From Gemmatimonadota bacterium (GTDB lineage Bacteria > GCA-2686955), in the NCBI GenBank assembly GCA_002686955.1, contig NYZA01000070.1, positions 1-6,375 on the forward strand: a stretch of DNA of 6,375 nt, written 5' to 3'. The notes under the pieces are model-generated. The model was not told where the DNA came from. It saw only the letters and a program-made list of their open reading frames with translations, and searched no databases. Within the stretch, counting starts at the first letter, position 1. Each line of letters begins with the position of its first letter. Of this stretch, positions 2,631 to 6,375 are shown piece after piece. The translations under genes were made by a program, and so were the position numbers.

Positions 2631-3146
2631 GTGGATCCCGATATTCGAACCCTCATGAAGCTGCTGGAATCGCGCTGGGTGCTTTCGCTGGCCACCACCG
2701 ACCCGGAAGGCCGGCCTTACGCCACACCGCTCTTCTACGCGGTGATCCCCCCGGACGCGCCACCGGCGGTGGAATCTCCGATCCTGCTCTTCGCGAGTCA
2801 TCCTCGGAGCAGCCATGCCGCTCATATCGGAGATCGCCCCTCTTCGGCAGCAGCTTCGATTCAGCTCGAAACCAGAATCTTGGGGCGAGTTCGCGGGGCG
2901 CAGCTCAGGGGATCGGTCTTTCCCGCGCGTATTTGTGGCGGAGACCTTCCGCGAACGCTGCTCTCGGTCTATCTTCGTCGGCATCCGGTCGCCGCGGGAG
3001 TCCTTGGCGGGGACTCCGAAGAGCAACTCTATCTGTTCGTGGTGAATTGGGCGAAGATGACCGACAACCGATGGGGAATCGGTGAGCACCGTACCTGCGT
3101 TTTCGATCCCGCGTGGTCGCGCCTGAAGATCGCCCCTCCAGTCTGA
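2631..3146 (+). CDS. YhbP/UPF0306-like flavin split-barrel protein
   Basis: The predicted 171-residue cytoplasmic protein belongs to the pyridoxamine-5'-phosphate-oxidase-like FMN-binding split-barrel fold and most resembles E. coli YhbP (about 147 residues) from memory. Matching stretches are the opening strand pair (VLSLATTDPEGRPYATPLFY, 17-36), the RSSHAAHIGDRP segment (59-70; YhbP has a similar TRHAQM stretch), RGAQLRG (88-94), YLRRHPVA (114-121) and KMTDNRWGIG (142-151). No catalytic role is established for this family; flavin binding is inferred from the fold. A Pro-rich insert at about 39-50 makes it longer than YhbP. The GTG start gives an N-terminus that aligns with YhbP; an in-frame ATG at 2655 is the alternative, and neither has a clear ribosome binding site. 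It is divergent from the protease and 48 bases ahead of the broken beta-helix gene. Confidence 0.75.
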   Translation: MDPDIRTLMKLLESRWVLSLATTDPEGRPYATPLFYAVIPPDAPPAVESPILLFASHPRSSHAAHIGDRPSSAAASIQLETRILGRVRGAQLRGSVFPARICGGDLPRTLLSVYLRRHPVAAGVLGGDSEEQLYLFVVNWAKMTDNRWGIGEHRTCVFDPAWSRLKIAPPV

Positions 3147-3184
3147 TCGAGCGCCGCTATGATGGACTCACTACTCAATGTCCT

Positions 3185-3189
3185 GGAGA
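3185..3189 (+). promoter_or_regulatory. ribosome binding site GGAGA for the beta-helix gene
   Basis: GGAGA lies 5 bases before the ATG at 3195, the clearest Shine-Dalgarno match in the window. It decides the start: translation from 3195 gives a clean signal peptide, whereas the upstream in-frame ATG codons at 3159 and 3162 would add residues that spoil it. Confidence 0.7.
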
Positions 3190-3194
3190 ATCCG

Positions 3195-3832
3195 ATGACC
3201 CGCGGAACCTGTTTCGCCCTGGCGGCCTCAACGGCCGCCTCTACCGCTCTCGCCGCCGTGATCGATGTGCCCGGAGATTTCGCTCAGATCCAGGCCGCCA
3301 TAACGAAACCGGCGCCTCGTTGCTTGGTGGGGGAGGCGCGGCCGTCATCGAATCGAAAGGCATCTTCGCCGGCTGTAGGATCGCTGACAATGGCTCCGGT
3401 TCGACCGGTGGCGGCATTTCACTCGGCGACACAGAAGCGCTCGTGTTGAACTGCACCGTGGTTCGAAATCAAGCGCAGAGCGGCGGCGGAATCTTCGTTA
3501 TCACCGACGGCGGCAACGAGATACGCAGCACCATAGCGTGGGACAACGCCGCGCCCAGCAGTTCTTCGATCCACGTCGACGGAAACCAGCCACTCGTCGT
3601 GTACGGCTGCATCGAGGGGGGATGGCCGGGTGTAGGCAACATAGATGTCGATCCGGATCTCACCGACTATTCGACCTGGAGCGATGTGCTCTACGTCGGA
3701 AGTCCCTGCATCGATTCCGGTGATCCTCTGCCGAATCTGAACGACTCGGTCGTCTGGCCCGGCTGGTACGAAAACGGGGCGAGATCCGATATGGGGGCGT
3801 ACGGAGGGGTCACGACATATTTGTGGAAGTAG
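3195..3832 (+). pseudogene. exported beta-helix protein gene, internally deleted and frameshifted
   Basis: Two frames must be joined to make a sensible protein. The first, from the ATG at 3195 to about 3302, encodes a signal peptide (about residues 1-21, ending ALAA) followed by VIDVPGDFAQIQAAI, the usual opening of right-handed parallel beta-helix proteins. The second frame, one base back, runs from about 3302 to the TAG at 3830-3832. It encodes beta-helix coils (GGGGAAVIESKGIFAGC, STGGGISLGDTEALVLNC, SGGGIFVI) and a typical end (NIDVDPDLTD, GSPCIDSGDP, RSDMGAYGG). The strands expected after IQAAI, normally including a GDTVLVAPGTY-like motif, are absent, so this looks like a deletion whose length is not a multiple of three rather than a simple indel. 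Without a shift, translation from 3195 stops at 3449. Intact relatives are secreted and often carbohydrate- or surface-associated, but no active site is visible here. An assembly or sequencing error is the main alternative. Confidence 0.75.
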
Positions 3833-4862
3833 TTCGTTCGAGGAATCGTCCCGGCACTTCCGCTCCGCAGCGCCGGCACTCTCCGCTCTCGATCGCGAGT
3901 TTCTCGACACGATACCCCCTTCTCTCGATCACCGCTTCGCCGCATGATGCGCAGAGGGTTCGCTGCCCGTCCCGGTCCGGAATGTTGCCCGTATAGACAA
4001 AGCGCAATCCCTCTTTCCGGGCGATCCGCCTGGCCCGCTTAACCGTAGCCGCGGGCGTTGCGGGGTTTTTCAGTTCGAAAGCGGGGCGATAGGCGCTGAA
4101 GTGGAGTGGGATATCGGGCGAAAGCTCGTCGCGGATCCAGGCGGAGAGCGCCCGCACCTCGTCCTCCGAATCGTTTTCACCCGGGATCAGCAGTGTCGTG
4201 ATCTCCACCCACACCGGGGTCTCGTGCACCAGGTACGAGAGCGTATCGAGGACCGGATCGAGATGTCCGCGGCAGAGCCGCCGGTAGAATCGCTCCGTAA
4301 ACGCTTTTAGATCGACATTCGCGGCATCGATCACGGAGAAGAGATCGGACCTCGCGGCCGGCTCGATGTACCCCGCGGTTACCGCAACGCTACGAAGGTC
4401 GCGCCGGCGACACTCCAAAGCGGTGTCGATCGCGTACTCCGCGAAGATCACGGGATCGTTGTAGGTGAAAGCGACGGAACGACAGTTCTTGCGTTGAGCG
4501 GCGGACGCTATCGCCTGAGGGTCGGCTTCCCCAACCAAGCGATCGGCTCGCTTTGCGTTGGAGATGTGCCAGTTCTGACAGAATCGGCACCCCAGATTGC
4601 AGCCGGCCGTTCCGAAAGAGAGAACGTCGCTGCCGGGATAGAAATGGAAAAGAGGCTTCTTCTCGATCGGATCGACGCAGAGCCCCGATGAGAGGCCATA
4701 TGTGGACAGCGCGATCCCTTCGTCGGTCGCTTCTCGCACGAAACAGAATCCTTTCTGCCCTGGACGGAGGCGACAACCCCGCGGGCAGAGGTCGCAGACG
4801 AATCGATCGCACTCTCGGTGCCACCATCGCCCGATTTTCAAGGCTGGACGACCCTTCGGCAT
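3810..4862 (-). CDS. amrS: AmmeMemoRadiSam system radical SAM enzyme
   Basis: This 350-residue protein is predicted to be a cytoplasmic iron-sulfur enzyme that cleaves S-adenosylmethionine to start radical chemistry; its substrate is unknown. The cluster motif CNLGCRFC places Cys88, Cys92 and Cys95 in the CX3CX2C spacing. An N-terminal cysteine set (CDLCPRGC, Cys23/26/30, then Cys40 in GFC) and the stretch VDPIEKKPLFHFYPGS (63-78) are hallmarks of this family. Further family matches are TYNDPVIFAEY (133-143), NVDLKAFTERFY (182-193) and EITTLLIPGENDS (220-232). The tail carries two CXXC pairs (Cys304/307, Cys329/332), probably a zinc ribbon. TYNDP replaces the more usual TYNEP. The ATG lies inside the 3' end of the upstream Memo-AMMECR1 gene (25-base overlap) with no clear ribosome binding site, which suggests translational coupling. 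The 3' end overlaps the convergent beta-helix gene by 23 bases. Confidence 0.92.
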   Translation of the reverse strand: MPKGRPALKIGRWWHRECDRFVCDLCPRGCRLRPGQKGFCFVREATDEGIALSTYGLSSGLCVDPIEKKPLFHFYPGSDVLSFGTAGCNLGCRFCQNWHISNAKRADRLVGEADPQAIASAAQRKNCRSVAFTYNDPVIFAEYAIDTALECRRRDLRSVAVTAGYIEPAARSDLFSVIDAANVDLKAFTERFYRRLCRGHLDPVLDTLSYLVHETPVWVEITTLLIPGENDSEDEVRALSAWIRDELSPDIPLHFSAYRPAFELKNPATPAATVKRARRIARKEGLRFVYTGNIPDRDGQRTLCASCGEAVIERRGYRVEKLAIESGECRRCGAEVPGRFLERTTSTNMS

Positions 4863-6073
4863 CGGAATCTGGCCAACTCGTACCTCTCCCTGGGGTCGAT
4901 TCCGGCCTTTCGAAGGGCGATGCCGATCGCCTTGGCCGCCGTATCGACATGCTCAACGGCCGGCAGGAGCACGCCACGTCGTTTTCCCAGTCTGACCACG
5001 ACGCCATGTTTTCTTGGGTCGATCATCTCGGAATCCTCCACCGGCTCGGCATCCCCGAGCAGGCTCACTTCGTAGCGGAGTTCCGGTAGCTCCCACACCG
5101 CCACCCGCTCGAAACGGCCGTCGCGCGTGGCCGAGCCGACGGCGATGTCGGCGATCTCGTGGAAAAGGAGCTCGGCATCGGGCCGCAGACGCCCGGTGCA
5201 TCCCCTCAGCTCCCCCTCTTTTCTGAGGGTCACGAACACGCCCCTCGCCGCCGGTCCGCCCTGCGGCTGCCGCCACGCATCGCCCCTGATGTGGCTCTCG
5301 ATCGCCCCCCGGGCGATCGCCCAAAGGGGCGGCTTCTCATCGTGAAGTACAGCCACCGTATAGCCAACGCCCCAGGGCCCCTCGTAGGACAGAACCGCCG
5401 AACTTCGCGCATCCTCGATCGAGGCCATCGCCGTCCTCGTCGAATCGATCACGTCCTCGGCCGCGACCTCCCGTTCCGGCGCTCCGAGCGCCCCTTTCCA
5501 GTCGCCGCGACGAAGCGCCCCGACGAATGCGCGGTCGAACGCTTGAGCCTGGGGATCGTAACCAGCCGGAGCCTCCACGCTCAATCGGTGGCTCATATCC
5601 CCCGACGCGATCACCGCCGTGTTTCCCGGGATCGCGGCCAAGGCGCCGCCGATCTCCTCCGCATCGCCCAGCGGCCATGGCGGTGCCAGCACCACCGTGG
5701 GGCCTCTCCAGCCGGAACGCGCCAGAAAAAGAAGGGGCACGACCGCTCCATGGTCGAGCTCCCCCCGGATTCCGCGCTCCAGCCCGAGCGCTCGAATCGC
5801 GGTGGGATCGGGTGGGAGATCGACACGCTCACGCGCGTGCCGAAAGCGCGCCAGAGATCCGCTCAGGGGCCCTTCCCATGCTCCCCAAATCCTCCCGTGA
5901 CGGGGTGAGTGTGGGGAGACCAAAACGACACGATCCGGCCCCGAGGCGACACAGCGATCGGCCACCTCTCGCATGGATCGGGTCGTTGCCGCACAGCGGT
6001 GGGCTTCGACCCCACCCACTTCAGGAACCACGATCGGGGCGTGGCACATCAGGGCCGCGAACTCGACACCCAC
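4838..6073 (-). CDS. amrB-amrA: Memo-AMMECR1 fusion (AmmeMemoRadiSam proteins B and A)
   Basis: The 411-residue product joins two conserved domains found from bacteria to humans. Residues 1 to about 245 are a Memo domain, related to class III extradiol dioxygenases (LigB fold). Family positions are CHAPIVVPEVG (10-20), SPHSP (53-57), LDHGAVVPL (106-114) and SGDMSHRL (157-164), whose histidines match metal-binding positions. From about 246 to the end is an AMMECR1 domain with LRGCTG (289-294, conserved Cys292), SATRDGRF (314-321) and HGVVVRLGKRRGVLLPAV (356-373). The biochemical roles of both domains are unsettled; genome co-occurrence ties them to the radical SAM partner encoded directly downstream. 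Translation begins at a GTG chosen by family alignment (FAALMCHAPIVVPEVG should be whole); the ATG at residue 9 would cut into it. Variations from the usual motifs are CHAP for PHPP, LRGCTG for LRGCIG and DGRF for DPRF. The gene lies 54 bases after the phosphofructokinase gene and is probably cytoplasmic. Confidence 0.92.
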   Translation of the reverse strand: MGVEFAALMCHAPIVVPEVGGVEAHRCAATTRSMREVADRCVASGPDRVVLVSPHSPRHGRIWGAWEGPLSGSLARFRHARERVDLPPDPTAIRALGLERGIRGELDHGAVVPLLFLARSGWRGPTVVLAPPWPLGDAEEIGGALAAIPGNTAVIASGDMSHRLSVEAPAGYDPQAQAFDRAFVGALRRGDWKGALGAPEREVAAEDVIDSTRTAMASIEDARSSAVLSYEGPWGVGYTVAVLHDEKPPLWAIARGAIESHIRGDAWRQPQGGPAARGVFVTLRKEGELRGCTGRLRPDAELLFHEIADIAVGSATRDGRFERVAVWELPELRYEVSLLGDAEPVEDSEMIDPRKHGVVVRLGKRRGVLLPAVEHVDTAAKAIGIALRKAGIDPRERYELARFRCRRVVQP

Positions 6074-6127: not shown

Positions 6128-6375
6128 CTACACGTCGCTGGTCATGATGAAGAGCGGCCGCCGCGAGAAAGTCTGGTAGATCGGTCGCAATCGATCGGCG
6201 TTGTAGTACTTCTGCACATCGATCCCCTTCTTCCGTCCCACCACCACATCGACCGGCACACTGTCGTAGCAACCGTTCCGCAGGCTGACCAATCTTCCCG
6301 CGGTCTTCGAGAGCACCAGGTCCATCGCCAGGTTCCCGAACGCCATCGGGACGATCGAATCGAGCGCGTCCGGAT
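6128..6375 (-). CDS. pfkA: 6-phosphofructokinase, C-terminal part (cut by window end)
   Basis: Only the last 81 codons are present; the gene continues beyond the window. The frame is open to the edge and ends at the TAG at 6128-6130. The residues match the C-terminus of phosphofructokinases of the mixed ATP/PPi lineage: PDALDSIVPMAFGNLAMDLV corresponds to the family's (S/G)xPDxLDRxVAxxxAxxAxDL helix. It is followed by GRLVSLRNGCYDSVPVDVV, a (K/R)-x-(I/V)DV element and the end RRPLFIMTSD. The enzyme phosphorylates fructose 6-phosphate to the 1,6-bisphosphate in glycolysis. The residues that decide between ATP and pyrophosphate as donor lie in the missing N-terminal part, so the symbol could equally be pfp. 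It is the first visible gene of a minus-strand run leading into the AmmeMemoRadiSam pair; no terminator-like hairpin is visible in the 54-base gap after it. Confidence 0.82.
   Translation of the reverse strand, partial: PDALDSIVPMAFGNLAMDLVLSKTAGRLVSLRNGCYDSVPVDVVVGRKKGIDVQKYYNADRLRPIYQTFSRRPLFIMTSDV

Follow-up and report, generated by a model that had tools for sequence, protein, structure and literature searches.

What kind of system is encoded by two overlapping genes of a Gemmatimonadota bacterium, and how much of the AmmeMemoRadiSam system do they hold? A preliminary description, made from the sequence alone, read the locus as a complete version of that system compressed into two reading frames, with Memo (protein B) and AMMECR1 (protein A) in one polypeptide and the synthesis of the radical SAM enzyme coupled to it. 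We analysed the window, i.e. the whole stretch of 6,375 nucleotides, which is the entire contig C70. The sequence and its relatives support the two-frame arrangement, the fusion of components B and A and the coupled synthesis, whereas the word "complete" has to be given up; on balance, we favor the view that the locus is a LigB-substituted, two-gene form of the AmmeMemoRadiSam system.

Anatomy of the two-gene locus

Both genes lie on the minus strand, in different registers, with the following features:

4838..6073, minus strand: LigB-AMMECR1 fusion protein, 411 aa, an open frame from a GTG start at 6073 to a TGA stop at 4838
5333..6073, minus strand: LigB-type (class III extradiol dioxygenase-like) domain, residues 1-247, from Pfam and the predicted fold
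4856..5317, minus strand: AMMECR1 domain, residues 253-406, from PF01871 and the PH0010 fold
5198..5200, minus strand: Cys292 in the LRGC motif, invariant in alignments
3810..4841, minus strand: AmmeMemoRadiSam-type radical SAM enzyme, 343 aa if begun at the TTG, which is preferred, and 350 aa if at ATG 4862
4578..4601, minus strand: CX3CX2C cluster motif (CNLGCRFC), from the sequence and Radical_SAM PF04055
4838..4841, minus strand: TTGA, a TTG start overlapping the TGA stop, from comparison with relatives

The fusion frame (6073-4838) spans 414 aa from stop to stop with no internal stop, and its product can be aligned over the whole length with the fusion proteins of loci L005, L007, L045 and L014 (43-55% identity). 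As these four fusions are independent, a frameshift artefact is very unlikely to be the source of this frame, and the earlier claim that components B and A share a single polypeptide stands. The N-terminal half matches LigB PF02900 (71.6 bits against a gathering score of 26.3), and the C-terminal half matches AMMECR1 both in Pfam (PF01871, 127 bits, E 6e-37) and in NCBIfam (TIGR04335, 111.2 bits, cut-off 99), with the previously described Cys292 in its LRGC motif; the NCBIfam name of the fusion, AmmeMemoRadiSam protein A, derives solely from this AMMECR1 part. In the AlphaFold2 model of the fusion (pLDDT 89.8, pTM 0.87) the AMMECR1 half superimposes on PH0010 with a Z of 21. The gene directly after the fusion encodes, as described, a radical SAM enzyme, recognized by TIGR04337 at 531 bits (cut-off 220, E 1e-159). 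The genome has one TIGR04335 and one TIGR04337 match, both inside the window. Our confidence in this anatomy of the two-gene locus is high. A binning error was considered for the contig and rejected, as its tetranucleotide value of 0.919 agrees with that of the genome (0.930 +/- 0.019), against 0.59-0.74 for relatives. Used as query in a genome scan, the fusion protein gave no match; a plasmid search likewise had no result.

Linkage, start codons and fusions among relatives

Relatives of the radical SAM enzyme were taken from GTDB species genomes; the counts that follow come from the best 80 of 492 matches and are biased toward close relatives. In 47 of these loci, the window included, the radical SAM gene immediately follows AMMECR1, and every one of the 47 has a candidate start no more than 16 bases from the AMMECR1 stop. 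The start overlaps in 36 of the 47 loci and sits at exactly -4 in 23. The preliminary description had proposed a survey of how often fusion and overlap occur together; we find an overlapping start in all 11 fused loci and in 25 of the 36 unfused ones. Overlap of start and stop is the norm, fused or not. With close linkage the rule and fusions common, the rarity implied by calling the locus a "compact version" is not borne out.

Two starts come into question for the radical SAM gene of the window. The 25-base overlap described earlier depends on ATG 4862, whereas the in-frame TTG 4841 overlaps the fusion gene by 4 bases, as TTGA, and yields the N-terminal length seen in relatives: counted from the overlapping start, the RWW motif is found at residue 5 both in the window and in L007, L045 and L014, and the seven extra residues gained from ATG 4862 have no counterpart in these three relatives. 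In a first survey, GTGA occupied the equivalent place in the four LigB-type fusions whose radical SAM gene is separate. Predicted ribosome binding energies, -3.7 kcal/mol at the ATG and -4.6 at the TTG where the median of the window is -3.0, reveal no strong site at either start and do not discriminate between them, in line with the earlier remark that a clear ribosome binding site is missing. Because the ribosome binding site does not settle the start, it was chosen by homology, and TTG 4841 with its 4-base overlap is well supported as the preferred start by this comparison. Weak ribosome binding sites would fit reinitiation by a ribosome that has just terminated, and the overlap makes it likely that synthesis of the radical SAM enzyme is coupled to translation of the fusion. 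The main alternative has the radical SAM gene translated on its own, with ATG 4862 as its start; small overlaps being common, the one seen here would then have no regulatory meaning. ATG is the stronger start codon, the binding energy of the TTG does not set it apart, and overlaps recur in unfused loci; against this stands the agreement of the TTG-derived length with three relatives, and we consider independent translation unlikely.

Fusions of components B and A occur with both LigB-type and Memo-type B components. Besides the window, the best 80 of 492 matches include 11 LigB-type loci, eight of them fused (L005, L007, L045, L014, L009, L029/L168, L166 and L167) and three unfused (L084, L030 and L075), in hosts from the Myxococcota, Nitrospirota, Verrucomicrobiota, Acidobacteriota and Bdellovibrionota, among others. 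The LigB-AMMECR1 fusion proteins share the domain order of the window, and a radical SAM gene neighbors them in L005, L007, L045, L014, L166 and L167; the window is no different in kind, and is one of those in which the predicted third metal position is Asp, L167 having Cys. The window locus is one more LigB-AMMECR1 fusion beside a radical SAM gene, of a kind catalogued in CDD as ED_3B_N_AMMECR1. The superfamily was reportedly surveyed by Burroughs et al. in 2019.

On the radical SAM tree the LigB label requires eight changes, and at least three if starred branches alone are counted. The B component was probably exchanged more than once, with the caveats that 28 loci have no B component and that several rows of the tree are long.

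In two of the LigB-type loci the fusion extends to all three proteins. The first, at L009:4558-7059, encodes LigB, AMMECR1 and radical SAM domains (PF02900, PF01871, PF04055) in one intact 834-aa frame. The second is assembled from L168:331-1332 and L029:1-1734: L029 opens inside the LigB domain at a contig end, and L168, on contig C267 of the same genome, supplies the rest, the two contig ends being identical over 123 bases and in frame with each other. These triple fusions come from a deltaproteobacterial and an Akkermansiaceae metagenome-assembled genome. On the radical SAM tree L009 stands beside L075, which has three separate genes, and L029 beside L166, which has a separate radical SAM gene. 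As L009 and L029 sit in different well-supported (starred) clades, the tree suggests that the full triple fusion arose at least twice. A three-domain model of a triple fusion (pLDDT 66.9, pTM 0.55) was too poor to judge the interface. As a further observation on local organization, a locus of Gulosibacter macacae (L067:2640-6013) has three AMMECR1 frames clustered with a Memo gene and a radical SAM gene.

The LigB-type domain and its predicted metal site

The preliminary description had taken the N-terminal half of the fusion for Memo. This half instead matches PF02900; neither PF01875 nor the NCBIfam Memo-type component matches the fusion, and PF01875 has no match on the whole contig. Its predicted fold is nearer to the extradiol dioxygenases than to MEMO1: residues 1-247 align with class III extradiol dioxygenases overall at Z 20-26 (rmsd 2.5-3.4 over 233-249 residues), with 2-aminophenol 1,6-dioxygenase, TK2203 and DHPAO leading (Z 24-26, of which 26 for the first two; rmsd 2.5-3.0), against a Z of 17 for MEMO1. 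Comparison of profiles from the LigB-type and Memo-type sets places the two in one superfamily (probability 96%).

MEMO1 binds iron or copper via His49, His81 and Cys244, the counterparts of His12, His61 and Glu242 of LigB (PMC11081632), and His127 and His195 are further catalytic residues of LigB (PMC11926856). Based on these assignments, and on conservation scored over 11 aligned LigB-type sequences with the window included, we infer the following residues:

6041..6043, minus strand: His11, predicted metal ligand (LigB His12), invariant (11/11), in the aligned range of the structural matches
5909..5911, minus strand: His55, predicted metal ligand (LigB His61), invariant (11/11), aligned to PDB profiles
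5453..5455, minus strand: Asp207, predicted third ligand (LigB Glu242, MEMO1 Cys244), by offset from the aligned ends
5588..5590, minus strand: His162, predicted counterpart of catalytic LigB His195, invariant (11/11), aligned to PDB profiles
5750..5752, minus strand: His108 (LDHG), predicted counterpart of LigB His127, present in 10/11, missing in L014

The predicted metal site is made up of His11, His55 and Asp207. Position 207 is Asp in 10 of the 11 LigB-type sequences and Cys in L167, and it aligns with an Asp of TK2203 in the PDB profiles. Glu231, in an invariant SYEGP motif, was considered as the third ligand; Asp207 is preferred because known third ligands map by offset to model positions 205-208 (LigB Glu242 and BvDOD His229 to 207, DesB Glu239 to 208, APD Glu251 to 205). 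When the residues were aligned with those of E. coli MhpB, this region came out misplaced owing to the longer insert of MhpB, whose long stretch before the third ligand is lacking in the window domain; the profile alignment of LigB with Memo has gaps here. The window domain has the fold, and probably also the metal site, of class III extradiol dioxygenases such as 2-aminophenol 1,6-dioxygenase, LigB and TK2203, and differs from them in its fusion to AMMECR1 and its linkage with a radical SAM gene; it would differ from MEMO1 in having Asp rather than Cys as third ligand. The one Cys-bearing LigB-type fusion (L167:360-1784) has the sequence AAECGLRS at the place of Asp207, resembling the ACG motif of Memo; in its genome COX1 is absent and an anaerobic ribonucleotide reductase is present.

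That the LigB domain occupies the usual place of Memo among most relatives is well supported. In the AmmeMemoRadiSam system protein B is Memo-type, whereas the B component of the window is LigB-type and joined to protein A as one polypeptide; protein A and the radical SAM enzyme score above the curated cut-offs, the neighborhood is alike, and the linkage is equally tight. As no Memo component is present at the locus and a LigB-type domain stands in its place, the locus is not a complete system in the sense first described. No Memo match was found in the genomes, partly drafts, of the 11 LigB-type relatives, which fits LigB doing the job of Memo. Strict mutual exclusion of LigB and Memo fails in the genome of the window itself, as one PF01875 protein is encoded there on contig C129, with neither AMMECR1 nor a radical SAM gene beside it. 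This solitary Memo (L001:1018-2412) has an extra N-terminal region of about 160 aa that matched no Pfam family, and L015 contains a comparably long frame whose C-terminal end is Memo.

The predicted active site raises the question of oxygen. One could suppose that the LigB half functions as a dioxygenase that cleaves rings with O2 and was joined, by an accident of operon history, to a system whose other parts do something else. The putative 2-His-1-carboxylate set and the counterparts of both catalytic histidines would be in keeping with this, as would the haem-copper oxidase encoded in the genome of the window and in those of ten of the eleven LigB-type relatives. However, 11 other genomes also have a LigB domain fused or adjacent to these two partners, which chance does not explain, and AMMECR1 is one of the leading Pfam markers of anaerobes, found in 3% of aerobes and 51% of anaerobes (PMC13386939), a distribution that counts against dependence of the whole system on O2. 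Given the oxidases, O2 use in this particular branch stays conceivable. The oxidase genes are uninformative on LigB type versus Memo type, because most Memo-type genomes (31 of 41) also carry COX1; with this control, the idea that Asp versus Cys tracks oxygen lifestyle, suggestive on 12 genomes, had to be dropped. We regard a chance-fused dioxygenase as quite improbable. Equally tentative, and in our estimate improbable to the same degree, is the idea that in this branch the Cys site of the Memo type was swapped for an extradiol-type, O2-using 2-His-1-Asp site, so that the AMMECR1/radical SAM pathway would run with two metal chemistries in different bacteria; if true, L167, a Cys-bearing LigB-type locus of a genome without haem-copper oxidase, would be the intermediate.

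A true Memo-AMMECR1 fusion, with Memo as component B of a complete system, is the least credible reading by far: the common superfamily, the appearance of MEMO1 among the structural matches and genuine Memo-AMMECR1 fusions in other loci (e.g. L013 and L033) are outweighed by the clear PF02900 match with PF01875 unmatched, by leading structural matches 7-9 Z units above MEMO1 and by Asp where Memo has Cys.

Possible joint action of the three parts

Taking the locus as the LigB-substituted form, we propose the following scheme. Ribosomes terminating on the fusion message probably also make the radical SAM enzyme. By analogy with the known families, it would follow that this is a 4Fe-4S enzyme and that the LigB half has a mononuclear metal site. 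In our scheme this site would bind one metal ion, probably iron, via His11, His55 and Asp207, and the LigB half would hold an oxygen-bearing substrate. The radical SAM enzyme would form a 5'-deoxyadenosyl radical acting on the substrate of LigB or on its precursor, and AMMECR1, via Cys292, may serve in binding or as a relay between the LigB half and the radical SAM enzyme. The three parts would form a 1:1:1 assembly working on one small molecule or nucleobase; the 1:1 and 1:1:1 stoichiometries are proposed because the recurrent double and triple fusions fix them. We think it somewhat probable that the parts act jointly on one substrate, whereas the individual chemical roles given to them here are doubtful. 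A literature search found no paper on the bacterial reaction.

Memo and AMMECR1 both occur in humans, as separate proteins, MEMO1 having the superfamily fold and AMMECR1 belonging to the family seen in the window, and the loci with LigB in place of Memo, together with the triple fusions, show which parts have to act together. The value of the locus lies in comparison, as either Memo or a dioxygenase-type domain can accompany the same partners, and a metal site with Asp for Cys would have a chemistry better understood than that of Memo. Natural single-chain versions suit biochemistry, and the intact triple fusion of L009 is a better object than the window for structure and assay.

The surroundings of the two genes add some minor observations. 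The radical SAM gene overlaps tail to tail, by 23 bases (3810-3832), a plus-strand beta-helix-like frame (3113-3832). At the other side, 54 bases upstream of the fusion gene and on the same strand, lies the 3' end of a probable 6-phosphofructokinase gene (6128-6373; a weak NCBIfam match, E 0.001), possibly in one operon with it. Farther away, positions 103-2550 of the minus strand encode a protein of 815 aa in which a trypsin-like peptidase domain (PF13365) is joined by a probable signal peptide.
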